This document shows, in pieces, positions 531 through 9,051 of a stretch of DNA of 12,649 nucleotides. The position numbers were made by a program, and so were the translations under genes. The notes under the pieces are model-generated. The model was not told the DNA's origin and did not search any database. It saw only the letters and a program-made list of their open reading frames with translations. Source of the stretch: Chitinophagaceae bacterium (lineage in GTDB: Bacteria; Bacteroidota; Bacteroidia; Chitinophagales; Chitinophagaceae); the NCBI GenBank assembly GCA_020846105.1, contig JADLEN010000028.1:1-12649 (forward strand), written 5' to 3'. How positions within the stretch are numbered: the stretch's first letter is position 1; each line of letters begins with the position of its first letter.

Positions 531-1352
531 ATGAACACAAAAACAATTTTCAAACAATCGGCTATTGCTGCAAGCTTTGCAGTGGCACTATTATTGGGCA
601 GTTGCTCTGGCGGCAATAAAGGCTCTGAAAACTCTTCAAGCAATACCACCCAAGCCATCGAAGGCGAGGAAATTGCGGTACTGACAGCAGCACCAAATGT
701 GCCACCGCCCATCACCCGTAAGCACGCTACCAAGATGATTGTAAAATTGGAAGTGATAGAAAAGGAAATGGAAATGATGGATGGTGTGAAATATAACTAC
801 TGGACATTTGGTGGAAGTGTACCCGGATTATTTATCCGTGTTCGTGAAGGTGATCTTGTAGAATTTCATTTGAGCAATCACGCAAATAATAAATTGCCCC
901 ACAACATAGATTTGCACGCAGTATCTGGGGAAGGTGGTGGTGCCGCAGCAACCTTTACTGCGCCGGGTCACGAAACACAATTTTCTTTTACTGCCCTCAA
1001 CCCTGGCTTGTATATTTACCATTGTGCTACAGCACCTGTGGGTATGCACATCGCCAACGGTATGTATGGTTTGATATTGGTAGAACCTAAAGAAGGCTTG
1101 CCAAAAGTGGACAAAGAATTTTATGTTTGTCAAGGTGATTTTTACACAAAAGGAAACTATGGCGAATCTGGTTTGCAGCAATTCAATATGGATAAAGCGC
1201 TAAAAGAACAACCTGACTATGTGGTTTTTAATGGTCAAGTTGGCGCGCTTTCTGGCGATAAATCTATGAAAGCAAAAGTTGGTGACAAGGTTCGATTGTT
1301 TGTAGGAAATGGTGGTCCCAATATGCTATCAAGCTTTCACGTAATTGGTTAA
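531..1352 (+). CDS. nirK: Copper nitrite reductase NirK, N-terminal 273 residues ending at a premature TAA
   Basis: NirK reduces nitrite to nitric oxide in the periplasm. The ATG at 531 is preceded by an A-rich leader and begins a lipoprotein signal (LLLGSC, lipidated Cys25). The first cupredoxin domain holds the type-1 copper ligands His124, Cys165, His173 and Met178, and type-2 ligands His129 and His164. Asp127 matches the catalytic Asp98 of Alcaligenes NirK, and His270 in SSFHVIG matches catalytic His255. The frame then stops at TAA (1350-1352), where relatives such as AniA read HVIGEIFD. The same frame continues with IFDNVYPEGG and the rest of NirK. As written, the product ends inside the second cupredoxin domain and lacks the type-2 copper ligand equivalent to His306, so it should not form a complete active site. 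It is otherwise a clear AniA-like NirK. The break is either a nonsense mutation or a sequence error. Confidence 0.93.
1350..1352 (+). other. In-frame TAA interrupting nirK
   Basis: Codon 274 of nirK is TAA. In AniA-type nitrite reductases the residue after HVIG is normally glutamate, so one G-to-T change (GAA to TAA) would explain it. There is no shift of frame: the 210 codons that follow, up to the next stop at 1980, continue the family sequence without another stop. TAA also ends most other complete genes here, so the codon is not reassigned as sense. No stem-loop or known recoding element is evident around it. Whether it is real cannot be settled from one sequence. Confidence 0.9.
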
Positions 1353-1982
1353 ATTTTTGACAATGTTTATCCCGAAGGTGGTTCTACGTTGAATCATAAT
1401 GTACAAACAACTTTGATACCTGCCGGTGGTGCTGCAATTACAGAATTTAAATGCGATGTGCCTGCAACGCTTATTTTGGTGGATCACTCTATATTCAGAG
1501 CCTTTAATAAAGGAGCTTTGGGAATGTTACAAGTAGAAGGAGCTGAGCAAAAATCAATATACTCCGGGCAACAAGATGATAGAATATACCAAGCAGAAGG
1601 TGGTGCGGTACAAACTATGCCAAGCGAGCCAAAAGTAGCTGCGCTTCCACTTACAAAAGAGGAGAAAATGACGAAAGGAAAAGCAATTTATGCGAGTACT
1701 TGCCAAGCTTGTCACCAAGCAGACGGTAAAGGAATTGCCAACGCATTCCCTCCACTTGCTGCTTCAGATTTCTTCGCTTCTGACCCTTCAAAAATTGTTA
1801 CCGCAATTACACACGGTCTTTCTGGCAAGATTACTGTAAATGGTAAAAGCTATGATGGTGTGATGCCAAAACAAACTTTGAGCGATGCACAAATAGCATC
1901 GGTAGCAACTTATGTACTTAATAGTTTTGGCAATAAAGGTGGTGAAATAAAAGAAACCGAGGTGGTAAAACTTAGAAAATAA
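1353..1982 (+). pseudogene. nirK: Rest of NirK: end of second cupredoxin domain plus fused C-terminal cytochrome c domain
   Basis: This continues the nirK frame after the internal TAA; uninterrupted, the protein would be 483 residues. Numbering from Met1, residues 275-337 finish the second cupredoxin domain and include His319 in LVDHSIFRAF, the expected type-2 copper ligand equivalent to His306. After a linker, residues 376-475 form a class I cytochrome c domain with heme motif CQACH (391-395) and a likely axial Met445 in GVMPK. Such NirK-cytochrome fusions can feed electrons directly to the type-1 copper. On its own this segment has no signal peptide. The first frame-compatible start codons are a TTG at 1389 and an ATG at 1524, both without a leader, so a free periplasmic cytochrome is unlikely to be made from it. 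The domain is about 60% identical (hand alignment) to the separate cytochrome at 3402-3869. Confidence 0.85.
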
Positions 1983-1983
1983 A

Positions 1984-2745
1984 ATGACAAGATTATTCAT
2001 TATCATCTTTTTATTCAACAGCACTTTTTCAGAGGGAAAAGGCGGCGAAGGTATGGTCTCTATCAAAGGGGGCTATTACCTGCCGCTTTATTCTTTAGAT
2101 TCGCAAAAGCTGCTGGTGAAAGACTTTTTGATGGATGTGTATCCTGTTACCAACAACAACTATTTGTCTTTTTTGCAAGAAAATAATGAGTGGGAAAGGA
2201 GCAAAGTAAAATCAATTTTTGCCGATACCAATTATTTGAATCAATGGATTTCTGACAGCACTTTTTCTCCCAATCTTGCAAAAAGTCCCGTGGTCAATGT
2301 CTCTTGGTTTGCTGCAAAAAAATATTGCGAATGCCAAGGCAAAAGACTAGCTACAACTGCTGAGTGGGAATTGGCAGCTCGCGCGAGCGACACAAAAGCG
2401 GATGCCTCGAAAGATAAAAAATTCAATCAGTGGGTGCTTAATTGGGTATCGAAACCAAACCCGAAAGTACTGCCCAATGTGGGTTATACTTTCCGAAATT
2501 ACTATGGTGTGTACGACCTACACGGCTTGGTTTGGGAATGGACTTACGATTTCAACAGTGCGCTTACCACCGGCGAATCGCGCGGCAATAGCGGATTAGA
2601 CAATACACTTTTTTGCGGAGGCGGCTCATTTGCTTCCAAAGACATTAATAACTATGCTTCGTTTATGCGCTTTGCCACACGGTCTAGCCTCAAAGCAAAA
2701 TACTGCGTGCCCAATGTTGGGTTTCGCTGTGTAAAAACACAATAA
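1984..2745 (+). CDS. nirV: NirV-like SUMF1/FGE-domain protein, exported, lacking the catalytic cysteine pair
   Basis: The protein has 253 residues. The ATG lies one base after the nirK stop, and a short hydrophobic export signal (residues 1-16, MTRLFIIIFLFNSTFS) supports this start. SUMF1-family marks are PVTNNNYLSFL (55-65), SPVVNVSWFAAKKYC (101-115), GKRLATTAEWELAAR (119-133), GVYDLHGLVWEWTYD (175-189) and the ending NVGFRC (244-249). True formylglycine-generating enzymes carry two cysteines just before the final AARS segment. Aligned here, those positions are Ala225 and Phe230, so sulfatase-activating chemistry is not expected. NirV proteins of this family are known immediately downstream of nirK in proteobacterial denitrifiers such as Rhodobacter sphaeroides 2.4.3, and the position here matches. 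Their function is unclear; help in NirK maturation or copper loading is an inference. Family assignment is sure, the nirV name less so. Confidence 0.82.
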   Translation: MTRLFIIIFLFNSTFSEGKGGEGMVSIKGGYYLPLYSLDSQKLLVKDFLMDVYPVTNNNYLSFLQENNEWERSKVKSIFADTNYLNQWISDSTFSPNLAKSPVVNVSWFAAKKYCECQGKRLATTAEWELAARASDTKADASKDKKFNQWVLNWVSKPNPKVLPNVGYTFRNYYGVYDLHGLVWEWTYDFNSALTTGESRGNSGLDNTLFCGGGSFASKDINNYASFMRFATRSSLKAKYCVPNVGFRCVKTQ

Positions 2746-2747
2746 TT

Positions 2748-3383
2748 ATGAAATACAAATTCCTGAAAATTGCGGCACTTGTTGCGCTTCCTCTTTTACT
2801 TAATTCTTGCCAAGAAAATGCAACGAAAGAAAAAGTAGCAGAAGAAAAAGAGTGTTGCAAGAAGAAAGATGCAAACGAAAGTGGCAAAGTTTCGGAAGAG
2901 TCTATTTACAACGTTACAAGTTTTTGGCAAACGCAAAACAATGAAAAAATACAGCTCAGGCACTTTGAAGGCAAACTGTTAATCGCAGCAATGGTATTCA
3001 CGCATTGCGAAGCAGCTTGCCCTCGCATCGTAGCCGACATCCAAAGGATTGAAAAAGAATTTACAGCCGACGAATTGAAGCAGATAAACTTCTTGCTCAT
3101 TTCTATGGACCCCGAAAGAGACTCCTCTGAAAGGCTTTTAGCGTTTTCGAAAGAATACCAAATGAATAATAACTGGACGCTCATAAACGGTACTGATGAT
3201 GCCACTATGGAGATGGCAAATATTTTGGGCGTGCGCGTCAAGAAGCTTTCTGACGGCGGATTCGACCACTCCAACACTATCTTTTTGATAGACCGTGGTG
3301 GCAACATCGTACACCAACAAAACGGGCTAGAGCAAGAACCAACAGATATGATCAAAAACACAAAAACATTTCTTAATAAATAA
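2748..3383 (+). CDS. SCO1/SenC-family copper chaperone / thiol-disulfide lipoprotein
   Basis: The protein has 211 residues and starts at an ATG two bases after the upstream stop. The N-terminus is a lipoprotein signal with lipobox LLNSC (Cys21), so it is probably anchored in a membrane facing the periplasm. The thioredoxin-like domain follows, with the SCO copper motif FTHCEAACP (Cys87 and Cys91, CxxxC) and the distal histidine in FDHSN (His174), the three classic copper ligands. SCO proteins deliver copper to, or reduce cysteines of, cuproproteins, best known for the CuA site of cytochrome oxidase. Between nirV and the cytochrome gene, the natural client here is the copper of NirK, which is an inference from position. 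An extra Cys36-Cys37 pair in a lysine/glutamate-rich linker could be another metal-binding site or chance. The family call is firm. Confidence 0.92.
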   Translation: MKYKFLKIAALVALPLLLNSCQENATKEKVAEEKECCKKKDANESGKVSEESIYNVTSFWQTQNNEKIQLRHFEGKLLIAAMVFTHCEAACPRIVADIQRIEKEFTADELKQINFLLISMDPERDSSERLLAFSKEYQMNNNWTLINGTDDATMEMANILGVRVKKLSDGGFDHSNTIFLIDRGGNIVHQQNGLEQEPTDMIKNTKTFLNK

Positions 3384-3401: not shown

Positions 3402-3869
3402 ATGAAAAAGTCAAACATCTTCAAAGCATCAGCAATCGTAGCCATTGCCATCTTTAGCGCCTGCGGCGGCGGAGAGCAGCCAGCAACAACAACTGCCACT
3501 ACCGAAGAGGCACCTGTATCAATGGTAGCACCTACCGAGCTTACTAAAGAGCAAAAAATAGAGCAAGGAAAAGCAGTGTATGAAAAAGTATGCCAAGCCT
3601 GCCATCAGGCCGACGGAAAAGGCGTTCCAGGTGCATTTCCTCCACTTGCAGAGTCTGATTACTTAGCTGCAGACCTTACCAAATCCATACACGGCGTAGT
3701 TCACGGACTTTCTGGAGAAATCACAGTAAATGGTGTAAAGTTTAATTCTGCAATGCCAAAATCTGACCTCAGCGACGAAGAAATTGCAAACGTTTTCACT
3801 TATGTGCTCAACAATTTTAGCAACAAAGGTGGAGAGGTAAGTGCAGCTGATGTAGCCGCAACAAGATAA
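3402..3869 (+). CDS. Class I cytochrome c lipoprotein, paralogue of the NirK-fused cytochrome domain
   Basis: The protein has 155 residues. The ATG at 3402 follows an 18-base A/C-only leader, and the signal ends in lipobox FSAC (Cys21). A Thr/Ala/Glu-rich linker (about 26-46) tethers one cytochrome c domain with heme site CQACH (64-68) and probable axial Met118 in SAMPK. It should carry electrons in the periplasm while fixed to a membrane. Its cytochrome domain aligns without gaps over about 105 residues to the C-terminus of the interrupted NirK, sharing CQACHQADGKG, AFPPLA, HGLSG and the end NKGGE, roughly 60% identity by hand. The shared origin suggests that both serve the same donor or acceptor. 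It is a plausible donor to NirK or NorC, the latter starting 28 bases downstream. The exact partner is inferred only. Confidence 0.9.
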   Translation: MKKSNIFKASAIVAIAIFSACGGGEQPATTTATTEEAPVSMVAPTELTKEQKIEQGKAVYEKVCQACHQADGKGVPGAFPPLAESDYLAADLTKSIHGVVHGLSGEITVNGVKFNSAMPKSDLSDEEIANVFTYVLNNFSNKGGEVSAADVAATR

Positions 3870-3897: not shown

Positions 3898-4323
3898 ATG
3901 CTTTCAAAATCGCAAGCAAAGGTGTTTTTTCTGGGAGGTACAATGCTCTCCTTTGCAGTTTTCTTAGGTATGTCTTGGAACTCGATGAGCAAGGAAGTAC
4001 CCAAGCAAACGCACGAAGAAAACTTGACAGCTCAGGTAATAAATGGGAAAAAAATCTGGGAAGCAAACAACTGTATGGGTTGCCATACCATATTGGGCGA
4101 GGGCGCTTATTACGCCCCCGAACTTACTAAAGTGTATGATAGAAGAGGCGAAGGCTACATAAAAGCCGCGCTGATGTCTAAAACACCTTGGTCGCCGAGA
4201 GGTAGAAAAATGGTGGCCTATGCTATGACCGAGCAAGAAGCAAACGATGTTGTTGCCTTCTTGAAATGGGTAGGAGAAATGGACCTCAATGGTTTCCCTG
4301 CAAAACCAGATTTGAAAAAATAG
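3898..4323 (+). CDS. norC: Nitric oxide reductase subunit C (membrane-anchored cytochrome c)
   Basis: The protein has 141 residues, a usual NorC length. One N-terminal membrane helix (about 9-27, FFLGGTMLSFAVFLGM) anchors a periplasmic cytochrome c domain with heme motif CMGCH (59-63). That motif sits in a typical NorC sequence ENNCMGCHTILGEGAYYAPEL-like block, here with ANN in place of ENN. The likely axial ligand is Met105 in GRKM. NorC accepts electrons from periplasmic donors and passes them to heme b of NorB for reduction of two NO to N2O. norB starts 27 bases downstream, giving the usual norCB order. The gene ends in TAG, while most of its neighbours end in TAA. No Shine-Dalgarno is visible; the leader is AT-rich, as for the neighbours. 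The assignment is firm. Confidence 0.95.
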   Translation: MLSKSQAKVFFLGGTMLSFAVFLGMSWNSMSKEVPKQTHEENLTAQVINGKKIWEANNCMGCHTILGEGAYYAPELTKVYDRRGEGYIKAALMSKTPWSPRGRKMVAYAMTEQEANDVVAFLKWVGEMDLNGFPAKPDLKK

Positions 4324-4350: not shown

Positions 4351-5691
4351 ATGAAATATAAATCGCAGAAAGTAGCCTACTGGTTTTTTGCCTTGTCGAT
4401 GCTGCTATTAAGTTTGCAAATTGTGTACGGCTTCATTATGGGTTTCGCGCATATGGGATACGATAATCTTCACTCTATTATTCCGTTCAATACGGCAAGG
4501 GCAGTGCATACCAACCTTTTGGTGGTGTGGCTATTATCTGGCTTTATGGGTGCCGCTTATTACATAATACCCGAAGAAGCCGAGAAAGAATTGGTGAGTG
4601 TAAAACTCGCTTACATCCAATTAATAACACTAGCCTTGGTGGGTGTGGTGGCCATTGTAGGTTATCACTTCAACTATTGGGAAGGCCGTAAGTTTTTGGA
4701 AATTCCACGACCACTAGACTGGTTGGTGGTAGCTAATGTACTCACCTTTTTAGGCATCATTATTATGACCCTTGCAAAAGGAAAAAAACGAACAACAACC
4801 TCTTTAGTGCTCACTATGGGCTTGGTGTTTGCCGCGCTACTATACCTACCTGGTATGATTTGGTTCGACAACCAAACGATGGATTCATTCTTCCGTTGGT
4901 GGGTAGTGCATCTTTGGGTAGAAGGTGTTTGGGAATTGATAATGGGCGGTATCCTTGCCTTCTTACTTATCAAAATTACAGGTGTGGATAGAGAGGTAAT
5001 TGAGAAATGGCTTTACGTAATTGTTGGTCTTACTTTTATCTCTGGAATCTTAGGTACTGGTCACCACTATTATTATATTGGTGTGGGCAAAATTTGGTTA
5101 ATTGTTGGCGGAATATTCTCAGCATTAGAGCCTTTGGCGTTCTTAGCAATGGCGCTGTTTGCTATCGCAATGTATCGTAAGGGAGAGAAAAAACATCCCA
5201 ACAAAATGGCACTTAGTTGGACGCTTGGTACCGCCATTGTATCTTTTGTAGGTGCTGGTTTGTTAGGCTTGGCGCACACTTTCCCTGCGGTAAATATGTA
5301 CACTCACGGCACGCTAGTAACGGCTATGCACGGTCACCTTGCGTTTTGGGGTGCTTACGCAATGATAGTTTTTGCGTTCATTAGCTATTCAATGCCCAAT
5401 CTTACGGGTCGTAAAATGTACGAAACCACATCTGGCTTGTTGGCTTTCTGGCTTTCCAATATTGGAATGATAGGTATGACAGCAGCTTTTGGTGTGGCAG
5501 GCGTTGCACAGGTATATCTCGAACGCAAAGTTGGTCTTGAGTTTGGCGAAGTGCAAAAGGAAATTGAGGTTCACTTTTTTATCCTAGTGTCTTGCGCCAC
5601 CTTATTCACCACAGGCATTGGTTTCTTTATTTATGAATTTATAAAGTACGGTCGCCCTAATGATGAGGCATTAATTGCCAATCAAGAATAA
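4351..5691 (+). CDS. norB: Nitric oxide reductase subunit B, cNOR type
   Basis: The protein has 446 residues with about twelve membrane helices, a member of the heme-copper oxidase superfamily that reduces 2 NO to N2O. All expected metal ligands can be placed: His53 (RAVHTN) and His329 for low-spin heme b, His327 (HGHLAFWG) for heme b3, and His187 (VVHLWVEG), His238 and His239 (GTGHHYY) for non-heme iron FeB. The functional glutamates Glu191, Glu195 and Glu260 match the Pseudomonas positions 211, 215 and 280. The spacings His187 to His238 (51) and His238 to His327 (89) equal those of Pseudomonas aeruginosa NorB. It lacks the long N-terminal extension of quinol-dependent qNOR, which agrees with a separate norC just upstream. 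It is intact and the last gene before a strong terminator. Confidence 0.97.
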   Translation: MKYKSQKVAYWFFALSMLLLSLQIVYGFIMGFAHMGYDNLHSIIPFNTARAVHTNLLVVWLLSGFMGAAYYIIPEEAEKELVSVKLAYIQLITLALVGVVAIVGYHFNYWEGRKFLEIPRPLDWLVVANVLTFLGIIIMTLAKGKKRTTTSLVLTMGLVFAALLYLPGMIWFDNQTMDSFFRWWVVHLWVEGVWELIMGGILAFLLIKITGVDREVIEKWLYVIVGLTFISGILGTGHHYYYIGVGKIWLIVGGIFSALEPLAFLAMALFAIAMYRKGEKKHPNKMALSWTLGTAIVSFVGAGLLGLAHTFPAVNMYTHGTLVTAMHGHLAFWGAYAMIVFAFISYSMPNLTGRKMYETTSGLLAFWLSNIGMIGMTAAFGVAGVAQVYLERKVGLEFGEVQKEIEVHFFILVSCATLFTTGIGFFIYEFIKYGRPNDEALIANQE

Positions 5692-5794: not shown

Positions 5795-6589
5795 ATGATA
5801 GCAACAGAAGAGATTATTAAAACACCTTTTTATAAAGCAATAGGAAAGGAGTGCGACGTTTTTGAACATTCTTTTCAGAATAAATTACCACTGCTAATTA
5901 AAGGGCCAACGGGCACCGGAAAGTCTAGGTTTGTAGCATATATGGCAAGCCAATTGGACCAAAAAATGATTACGATTAGCTGCCACGAGGAAACATCATC
6001 AACCGATTTGATTGGACGATTCATCATCAAAGGCGCAGAAACAATTTGGCTTGATGGTCCATTAACCACTGCCGTAAAAAACGGGTACATTCTTTACCTA
6101 GACGAAGTGGCAGAAGCCCGCCCTGACGTAGTTGTGGCCATTCACTCACTTACCGATCATCGTCGTGAATTGTTTATAGACAAGCTGAACGAAACTGTGA
6201 AAGCGCACGAAAAATTTATGTTGGTGGCATCATTTAACCCAGGTTATCAACGTGGTTTTAAAGAATTGAAACCTTCTACACGGCAAAGGTTTATTGCGCT
6301 CTCTTTTAATTTTCCTGATGCAAAATTAGAAGAAGAAATTTTGATCAAAGAAACAGGTGTGGATGCGGATATTGCAAAGCGATTAGTGAACATCGGCAAC
6401 AAGGTGCGCAACCTTACAGAGCTTGGGCTTACAGAAACAGTTTCGACGAGATTGTTAGTAGATGCTGCGAAGCTGATTTGTTCGGGATTGGCAAACAGAC
6501 TATCGGTAAAAGTTGCTGTGATGGAACCGCTTTCTGACGAACCGCAAGTGCTCACTGCGCTCTACGATTTGACTGATTTAATGATGTAA
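5795..6589 (+). CDS. norQ: NorQ/CbbQ-type MoxR AAA+ ATPase
   Basis: The protein has 264 residues. Visible AAA+ elements are Walker A GPTGTGKS (37-44), Walker B ILYLDEV (99-105, Asp103-Glu104), a sensor-1 asparagine at Asn148 in SFNPGYQ, arginine-finger candidates Arg163 and Arg165 in STRQRF, and a sensor-2 arginine at Arg219 in VSTRLL. The ASFNPGYQRGFKELKPSTRQRF region is typical of NorQ/CbbQ. These ATPases work with a VWA partner (NorD or CbbO) to activate a metalloenzyme; NorQD are needed to build active NorCB, probably by inserting FeB. norD starts 5 bases downstream, the standard pairing. The ATG at 5795 lies just after the terminator region, so the unit needs its own promoter or read-through; I found no convincing Bacteroidota promoter in the remaining bases. 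CbbQ is the alternative name, but norB next door favours NorQ. Confidence 0.93.
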   Translation: MIATEEIIKTPFYKAIGKECDVFEHSFQNKLPLLIKGPTGTGKSRFVAYMASQLDQKMITISCHEETSSTDLIGRFIIKGAETIWLDGPLTTAVKNGYILYLDEVAEARPDVVVAIHSLTDHRRELFIDKLNETVKAHEKFMLVASFNPGYQRGFKELKPSTRQRFIALSFNFPDAKLEEEILIKETGVDADIAKRLVNIGNKVRNLTELGLTETVSTRLLVDAAKLICSGLANRLSVKVAVMEPLSDEPQVLTALYDLTDLMM

Positions 6590-6594
6590 TAATT

Positions 6595-8361
6595 ATGGCT
6601 TTAGACGAATATATTTATGGAAAAATTGCACGCTATTTCAAGAATAAAAGCAAACAATCTTCTATTGAAGAAATAGAAAGAACCGTTCGCTTAGAAGATA
6701 TAAAGCCACGATTAACTATTCTGTCAAGAGCACTTACAGGAAGGGTTATTGAGGTGTTTCCAGCAGAGCGAGAAGGCGGCTACAAGAATAATAATTTTTT
6801 CTTCCCCACTACACTTTCTTTATTCCCAAGCTACGACCAAAATCTATCTTTTTATTTCTATCGGCTACTCTATTTATCCACGCAGCAAAGCTTGGATTTG
6901 AATTGGAAAGAAGCAGCAGAAATAGACCTAAAAACAGCACAACAATTTGCTTTAGAAGCATCGCCAACAGTGCTCGAAAAAATGTTTGAAGACTATCCCA
7001 TTTCGCAAGAGCTGTACGATTCTTTCTTTCTTTTTTTTCAAAAACATGCAACTGAAAAAAGTCCGATTGACCATTCGTGGCTCTACGGAAAATGGATGCG
7101 CGATGAAAAAGAAAAAGATAAAAACAATCAACTTAATGAGTTTTCTGAGGCTGTAAAAAAAGCAATAAACGACCAAGCAAAAACAATACTAAAAGCAAAT
7201 GCTGTGGAAGAAGTGGTAACCGCAGAAGTGGATAAAAAAGCACAAGAAGAATATGTGATGACCCACAATTTTGAGAAGGTAGAAACCGCCGACGAGCACA
7301 ACGGAATTTGGCGAGACTTTGATGGGGACGATGATTTGGAAGATCATCAAGATGCGCTCGACGAGCTGAATATGAAATATACTGTGCGGGTAGATGACGT
7401 GGCGCATTCTATTTATCAAGCCGAATTTACCGAGAATACAAGCATAGCCGAGAGTCGTGAACAACATAATAATGACTATCATATTTGCTACCCCGAGTGG
7501 AACTATGCAAAAGGTGAGTACAAAAAAGATTTTTGCAAAGTTTACCCCAAAAAACAAATAGAGACTGCCGCAGATTATTACCAAAAAACGATAAAGGATA
7601 ATGCTGTAGTGCTTACAGGGCTTCGCAAAATGCTGACCTCTATTAATAATAAAATGCAGCAGGTACGCCGGCAGAGCGATGGCGAAGAATTTGATTTGGA
7701 TGCCCTTTGCGATTTGTATGCGGATATTTTTTCGGGAGTAAGCCCAAGCGAAAATATCTATTTATCTAAGCGGAAAAAAGAAAAAAATTTATCCATTCTG
7801 TTGTTGCTCGACCTTAGTCTTTCGAGTGATGGCTATGCCGATGGCAACAGAGTGATTGATGTGGAAAAGCAAGCCAGTATTTTATTTGGTGAAATTCTAA
7901 ATGAATATCAAATAGATTTTTCGGTGCAAGGTTTTTATTCCAAAACAAGAAACTATTCTTCCCATATAATACTCAAAGATTTTGATGAAAACTGGGCAAA
8001 TGCAAAGTATAAAATAGGTGCAGTAGTGCCAAATGGATATACCCGAATAGGCGCTGCACTGCGACATTCTGGGGCATTGCTACGAGCGCGCGACACAAAA
8101 AATAAGTGGATAATTCTCCTTTCAGACGGTAAGCCAAATGACTATGATAAGTATGAAGGGAAATACGGAATACAAGATGTGAAGCAAGCGCTTTTGGAAC
8201 TGAAACGAGAAAATATAGGCGCTTATGCACTTGCCATAGAGGCGCAAGCCAAGTATTATTTGCCCCAAATGTTTGGGAAAAATCATTATCAAATGCTTAC
8301 TACTCCCAATGAGTTGCTTACATCACTAGCTGTACTTTACGAAAAAATAAAACGCGGATAA
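6595..8361 (+). CDS. norD: NorD: VWA-domain (MIDAS) activation protein for NO reductase
   Basis: The protein has 588 residues, close to usual NorD size, and has no signal peptide, so it acts in the cytoplasm with NorQ. The N-terminal two thirds are poorly conserved and partly charged, including an Asp/Glu-rich run at about 241-257. The C-terminal von Willebrand factor A domain runs from about residue 398 to 585. It has a full MIDAS metal site: DLSLS (Asp406, Ser408, Ser410), Thr483 in NGYTRIG and Asp511 in LLSDGKPND. NorD/CbbO proteins link the NorQ/CbbQ hexamer to the target enzyme through this site. The start is the ATG 5 bases after the norQ stop. Its own stop directly abuts the next ATG, so translational coupling with the carbonic anhydrase is likely. 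The family assignment is firm. Confidence 0.93.
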   Translation: MALDEYIYGKIARYFKNKSKQSSIEEIERTVRLEDIKPRLTILSRALTGRVIEVFPAEREGGYKNNNFFFPTTLSLFPSYDQNLSFYFYRLLYLSTQQSLDLNWKEAAEIDLKTAQQFALEASPTVLEKMFEDYPISQELYDSFFLFFQKHATEKSPIDHSWLYGKWMRDEKEKDKNNQLNEFSEAVKKAINDQAKTILKANAVEEVVTAEVDKKAQEEYVMTHNFEKVETADEHNGIWRDFDGDDDLEDHQDALDELNMKYTVRVDDVAHSIYQAEFTENTSIAESREQHNNDYHICYPEWNYAKGEYKKDFCKVYPKKQIETAADYYQKTIKDNAVVLTGLRKMLTSINNKMQQVRRQSDGEEFDLDALCDLYADIFSGVSPSENIYLSKRKKEKNLSILLLLDLSLSSDGYADGNRVIDVEKQASILFGEILNEYQIDFSVQGFYSKTRNYSSHIILKDFDENWANAKYKIGAVVPNGYTRIGAALRHSGALLRARDTKNKWIILLSDGKPNDYDKYEGKYGIQDVKQALLELKRENIGAYALAIEAQAKYYLPQMFGKNHYQMLTTPNELLTSLAVLYEKIKRG

Positions 8362-9051
8362 ATGACCCAATTTCCAATAAAAATTAAACTGTTTGTATTG
8401 TTTTTTTTTTGCGCAAACATGATAAGTTGTACAGGCCAAAGGGTAGAACAAAATCCCCATCAGGTTGTGCTTCATTCAGCCGATGAGGCACTTGCCGAAT
8501 TGAAAAAGGGCAACAAAAGATTTATTGAAAACAAAATGTGGAACACCAATTATGCCGCTGAAATTGAAAACACAAAAGGACATCAAAATCCTCATTCCAT
8601 TATTCTAGGATGTATAGATTCTCGTGTACCACCTGAAATTGTTTTCGACCAAGGTATAGGAAATATTTTTGTGTCGCGGGTGGCTGGCAATGTGGAAGAT
8701 GATGATGTACTCGGTAGCATTGAATTTGCCATAAAGGTGAAACATACAAAACTAATTGTAGTGCTAGGCCACAGTCACTGCGGTGCTGTGCAAGGTGCTA
8801 TTGATAATGTAGAAATGGAGCACCTTACACAGCTCACAGACCAAATAAACCCCGCCATTCACGACCAAGAATCTTACCCTATGGAAAATGTCAAAATAGA
8901 CATCACCTCGCGTAAAAATGTAGAAATAACCTTAAAGCATATCCTTGCACTCAGCAAAACAGTGAATGATTTGGTAACAAATGGTGAGGTAAAAATTATC
9001 GGTGCCTACTACAATGTCGAGAATGGTGAGGTAAGTTTTTTTGATAAATAA
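8362..9051 (+). CDS. Beta-class carbonic anhydrase with a lipoprotein signal
   Basis: The protein has 229 residues. It interconverts CO2 and bicarbonate. Zinc ligands are Cys84, His137 and Cys140, and the Asp86/Arg88 dyad lies in GCIDSRVPPE; the second motif is GHSHCGAVQGA. The N-terminus is a signal sequence ending in MISC (Cys23), so it is probably a periplasm-facing lipoprotein; many beta-class enzymes are cytoplasmic. Ten consecutive T (8401-8410) encode the hydrophobic core of the signal, a place where slippage could switch the frame. The ATG starts on the base after the norD stop codon, which suggests it is the third gene of a norQ-norD unit. A role in supplying or buffering protons or bicarbonate near nitrite/NO reduction is a guess. 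Enzyme class is firm; the link to denitrification rests on position alone. Confidence 0.93.
   Translation: MTQFPIKIKLFVLFFFCANMISCTGQRVEQNPHQVVLHSADEALAELKKGNKRFIENKMWNTNYAAEIENTKGHQNPHSIILGCIDSRVPPEIVFDQGIGNIFVSRVAGNVEDDDVLGSIEFAIKVKHTKLIVVLGHSHCGAVQGAIDNVEMEHLTQLTDQINPAIHDQESYPMENVKIDITSRKNVEITLKHILALSKTVNDLVTNGEVKIIGAYYNVENGEVSFFDK

Follow-up and report, generated by a model that had tools for sequence, protein, structure and literature searches.

A stop codon that splits nirK in a Chitinophagaceae draft genome most likely reflects a wrong base in the draft sequence

Three-domain heme-Cu nitrite reductases such as RpNiR (PDB 3ziy and others; also 2zoo) consist of two cupredoxin domains followed by a C-terminal heme c. 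These structures are the best PDB matches of the NirK fusion described here (residues 45-482, E about 1e-183), which has the same domain order and whose type-2 Cu ligands and catalytic Asp and His align with those of RpNiR. The AniA-type two-domain NirK of Neisseria (PDB 1kbv, 5ue6) matches the core (residues ~49-353); unlike the fusion, the matched chains have no fused heme domain. PMC2924362 cites counts of 5 of 23 and of 8 of 31 meningococcal strains whose nirK is inactivated by small mutations; the genus keeps norB.

The window, i.e. the whole stretch of DNA that was analysed (12,649 bases), is contig C28 of a fragmented metagenome-assembled draft genome (MAG) of a Chitinophagaceae bacterium (1,906,509 bases in 358 contigs, completeness 73.16, contamination 0.26). 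Unlike RpNiR, the NirK frame of the window is cut after residue 273; a database copy named P0002 is uncut. The following features were assigned:

531..1349, + strand: first part of the NirK core (273 codons), with cupredoxin domain 1 and most of domain 2 behind a signal/lipoprotein-like N-terminus (TIGR02376, 283.0 bits)
1350..1352, + strand: in-frame TAA, most likely a draft base error (open copy P0002)
1353..1982, + strand: end of NirK domain 2, which contributes the type-2 Cu ligand H319, followed by a linker and the C-terminal cytochrome c with CQACH at residues 391-395 (frame, PF00034, alignment)
1984..2745, + strand: FGE-sulfatase/EgtB-like protein (PF03781)
2748..3383, + strand: SCO1/SenC-like protein (PF02630)
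3402..3869, + strand: stand-alone cytochrome c (PF00034)
3898..4323, + strand: NorC-like cytochrome c (PF00034; named NorC for its position beside norB)
4351..5691, + strand: NorB-like subunit of the heme-copper oxidase family (PF00115; named NorB from context)
5795..6589, + strand: NorQ/CbbQ-like ATPase (PF07728, PF08406)
6595..8361, + strand: NorD-like VWA protein (weak VWA matches; named from position)

The open reading frame at 531-1352 (273 aa) is closed by the in-frame TAA at 1350-1352. Past this stop the same frame continues from 1353 for 209 sense codons, or 210 codons if the terminating TAA at 1980-1982 is counted. No frame shift lies between the two parts, and a cytochrome c is encoded behind the stop (domain PF00034, E 3.3e-11). 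P0002, which was found in a protein database, comprises 483 residues; it contains a Glu at position 274, and its other 482 residues are identical to the two parts of the window. Since P0002 aligns with the two parts over their full length, they represent a single gene that is split, rather than two frames that are open by chance. With the model for copper-containing nitrite reductases, TIGR02376, the 283.0 bits of the first part fall below the curated cut-off of 296.3, whereas P0002 scores 362.6 and thus exceeds it. The C-terminal cytochrome c that a three-domain heme-Cu NirK carries in the same protein is missing from the cut frame and present in P0002.

Residue correspondences were deduced from an alignment to RpNiR, whose residue names follow PMC6278305. 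Asp127, His129, His164 and His270 correspond to RpNiR Asp97, His99, His134 and His240, and all of them precede the stop. His319 is the equivalent of RpNiR His289, the third type-2 Cu histidine, and lies behind the stop together with the heme domain. The cut frame therefore contains only His129 and His164 of the three type-2 Cu histidines, all of which are present in P0002. The column of the stop is occupied by Glu in 178 of 195 database proteins and by Asp in 16, and one protein has a gap. In 90 loci of relatives, which comprise 10 of the 14 loci from one set and all 80 that were kept out of 560 matches, and which include Neisseria, the residue is Glu in 84 cases, Thr and Gly in two each, and Asp and Gln in one each. 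An acidic residue is usual at this column and not universal; the RpNiR structure has an Ala. The type-1 Cu ligands, which we take to be H124, C165, H173 and M178, are all located 5' of the stop and are conserved in 195, 195, 195 and 194 of the 195 proteins, respectively.

An earlier note on this sequence had described a NirK-cytochrome c fusion split by a nonsense codon, with neither a shift nor a further stop for 210 codons. The continuing frame, the domains and P0002, which spans both parts, confirm this description. The statements that the stop leaves catalytic His270 and removes the type-2 ligand His319 and the heme domain agree with the RpNiR alignment. What the note called the remaining copper ligand is, more precisely, the third type-2 Cu histidine, so that the term is right in substance. 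The Glu that it expected in relatives occurs in most of them, though RpNiR deviates, and the alignment to relatives that it proposed as a check yielded a stop at this column in none of the 90 loci.

The start codon TTG of an open reading frame at 1389-1982 could be taken to indicate two genes, namely a shortened NirK and a second protein that is started separately. The first ATG, however, follows 57 codons past the stop, the second part begins inside domain 2, and the column is a sense codon within one frame in 90 of 90 relatives' loci, none of which has the same split followed by a separate start site. This arrangement is highly improbable and was rejected. An old pseudogene was likewise rejected, because divergence behind the stop is not relaxed: The ratio of dN 3' to dN 5' of the stop has a median of 1.94 in the 12 pairs that include the window, compared with 2.13 among 12 relatives (65 of 66 pairs; one was dropped for zero divergence). 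The absence of decay fits a very recent nonsense event as well as an error.

The quality of the draft was assessed by means of a screen, based on codon usage, for stop codons that are flanked on either side by coding sequence of the same frame. The screen covered the window and 140 further contigs; 123 of these 141 sources were readable (720,251 bases), and 18 consisted of N throughout. It yielded 95 candidates, 38 of which had no ATG in the first 18 codons. From these 38, nirK and seven others were pursued by searching for homologues, and each of the seven withstood the comparison. The other 30 were judged by eye as short, antisense-looking, low-scoring or having an apparent late start (e.g. 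L112), and the 57 candidates with an early ATG were left aside; the number of seven is therefore a lower bound. The 707,602 readable bases outside the window thus contain at least the following seven isolated in-frame stops, whose frames are open in the nearest relatives:

L163:4561-4563: cdsA; open in same-genus relatives (59-61%) and in one fragment (77%); Pfam domain spans the stop
L245:1562-1564: ligA; open in five same-genus genomes (74-80%); Pfam domain spans the stop
L220:2866-2868: proS; open in five relatives (86-93%); Pfam domain spans the stop
L214:3411-3413: choice-of-anchor I protein; open in the nearest relatives (80%); Pfam domain spans the stop
L209:7910-7912: WYL/WCX protein; open in the nearest relatives (69%); stop between two domains
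L168:3119-3121: small hypothetical protein; open in the nearest relatives (74%); no Pfam match
L164:4025-4027: NAD(P)H-hydrate dehydratase; open in three relatives (61-65%); Pfam domain spans the stop

Prolyl-tRNA synthetase, NAD-dependent DNA ligase and CDP-diglyceride synthase (proS, ligA and cdsA) are normally indispensable. As each of them has a single match in the draft, their stops can hardly be real in living cells. Moreover, a database copy of ProRS, P0197, differs from the draft at the stop alone; it is found on three contigs, the longest of which has 8,268 bases, compared with 11,028 for the draft proS contig. The named database matches of ProRS include Chitinophagaceae bacteria, Rurimicrobium and Taibaiella, so that the MAG belongs to a Chitinophagaceae-like member of the Bacteroidota. 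Single stops also occur inside the matches of some relatives: for cdsA in 9 of 36 rows, all from outside the genus, and for proS in 2 of 22 full-length rows. For the hydrate dehydratase, 4 of 21 rows are affected, including one from a same-genus genome, G002, whose gene is moreover in two pieces. Some of these internal stops may lie outside true genes.

A background of about 2e-4 substitutions per base was estimated as a lower bound from six breaks in the 707,602 bases, with 4.1% of single-base changes in coding codons creating a stop. The corresponding chance of a stop in one given gene of the length of nirK is about 1%, and the seventh break raises both rate and chance by one sixth. The error background alone hence does not predict the stop in nirK; given this background, however, such a stop is unremarkable in a genome of this size. 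A control on 30 loci from isolates, one of which contained N, proved barely informative. Among the remaining 29, the 12 low-GC loci (153 kb) gave no candidate, where one or two were expected at the rate of the MAG; 10 mid-GC loci gave 7 and 7 high-GC loci gave 27 candidates, which look like antisense frames.

The stray stops also bear on a reading of the TAA as an amino acid, by codon reassignment or read-through, which would yield the full fusion and agree with the conserved frame behind the stop. In a reassigned code, one stop would stand for one residue and rarely serve as a terminator, which is not what the draft displays. The stray stops include TAA, TAG and TGA and occupy positions where relatives have mainly Glu (at three of them), Tyr or Leu (for cdsA Tyr in 5 of 11, for ligA Glu in 4 of 11, for the choice-of-anchor I protein Glu in 2 of 3 and for proS Leu in 111 of 120). 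All three codons end ordinary long frames in the draft (214 TAA, 80 TAG, 12 TGA). No single recoding fits different replaced residues and three codons that all terminate long frames; a recoded stop was accordingly rejected as scarcely credible.

A real and recent nonsense mutation would leave the strain with a NirK that is truncated ahead of the third type-2 Cu ligand and deprived of the heme domain and the last portion of domain 2. The strain could not reduce nitrite with this protein, while NorCB would be kept. The stop is present in the draft sequence, the undecayed 3' part suits a very recent event no less than an error, and meningococci are an example of natural nirK inactivation beside a kept norB (PMC2924362). 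It is also in line with such a mutation that the 73%-complete draft, in which an absence carries little weight, contains no match to NrfA, no convincing NirS and no second NirK (its one PF07732 match is NirK itself). On the other hand, P0002 is an open copy that is otherwise identical and sits on a 2,568-bp contig, separate from that of the window. The truncated 273-residue product, used as a database query, was not found among the 120 matches listed, none of which exceeded 87% identity; P0002 is too long to be a candidate. In addition, stops of the same type interrupt genes that cells cannot lose (cdsA, ligA, proS). A real nonsense allele is therefore unlikely. Still less likely is a mixed population in which some cells carry a real nonsense nirK and live by reducing NO while others retain the open gene, denitrification being divided between strains of one species.

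The searches for further nitrogen-oxide enzymes gave one match to Cytochrom_D1 just above the cut-off (contig C40, L135:3-1412). This protein combines PSCyt1 with a YNCE-like propeller, a combination that can be mistaken for NirS; it was rejected as a NirS candidate. The sole match to NosZ was the cupredoxin of NirK itself and remained below the cut-off, again with the weak significance of an absence from a 73%-complete draft.

The genes 3' of nirK (FGE-like, SCO1, cytochrome c, norC-, norB-, norQ- and norD-like) are all open; no NorB-specific model matched the protein at 4351..5691. The gene order of the window recurs in L018-L021, the four loci of relatives that extend far enough to show it. 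In L018 and L019, SCO1 and norC have no stand-alone cytochrome c between them; in L020 and L021 the end of the locus cuts norQ, and extra stretches occur between genes. The FGE-sulfatase/EgtB-like gene (1984-2745) directly follows nirK in 14 of 15 relatives' loci (L003, L017-L030), the exception being L024, whose contig stops within nirK. FGE enzymes are copper binders; the FGE-like protein has no obvious role in a nitrite/NO gene set. The stand-alone cytochrome c (3402-3869) is 47-63% identical to the NirK-fused heme domains of relatives' loci, as if one had been copied from the other. A beta carbonic anhydrase (PF00484) with a lipoprotein-like N-terminus is encoded directly after norD (8362-9051).

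Taken together, the TAA at 1350-1352 is best explained as a single-base consensus error in a fragmented and incomplete MAG, with a probability of roughly 0.87. This judgement follows from the similar stray stops in indispensable genes and from the intact copy elsewhere; it is the open copy P0002 that makes an error likelier than a gene loss. On the strength of their identity, P0002 and P0197 appear to stem from the same population as the draft, and we infer that the TAA arose through a base error and not as a genuine but rare allele. As a feature, the stop in nirK is very probably not real biology. Of the causes listed in the earlier note, i.e. recent mutation, base error or strain heterogeneity, the base error is favoured by P0002 and the stray stops, and a real recent allele is less likely. 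Its proposal that the organism lost nitrite reduction and turned from denitrifier to NO scavenger hangs on one codon and finds no support, given that P0002 is open at this codon and that isolated stops also occur in proS, ligA and cdsA. In the living population, the three-domain heme-Cu nitrite reductase is most likely encoded by an open gene. By analogy with the enzymology of the family, the fused cytochrome c would deliver electrons to the type-1 Cu and thence to the type-2 Cu, where nitrite would be reduced to NO, and the neighbouring NorCB would convert NO to N2O.

With seven further isolated in-frame stops, the gene inventory of this MAG has to be used with care. A single draft base would recast a nitrite-to-N2O gene set as that of a "NO scavenger". 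Isolated stops in indispensable genes of the same draft, combined with an open copy elsewhere, provide a cheap check that tells a draft error from a gene loss. Under the wording tried, a literature search for base errors in MAGs returned nothing. Compared with the known systems, the losses of nirK in Neisseria meningitidis recur in sequenced strains, whereas the present case comes from a single draft whose base quality is doubtful, and other data contain an open copy. Even if the stop were real, it would not constitute a new kind of event, because nirK inactivation beside norB is on record for meningococci (PMC2924362); it would add one more nirK loss of an already reported kind.
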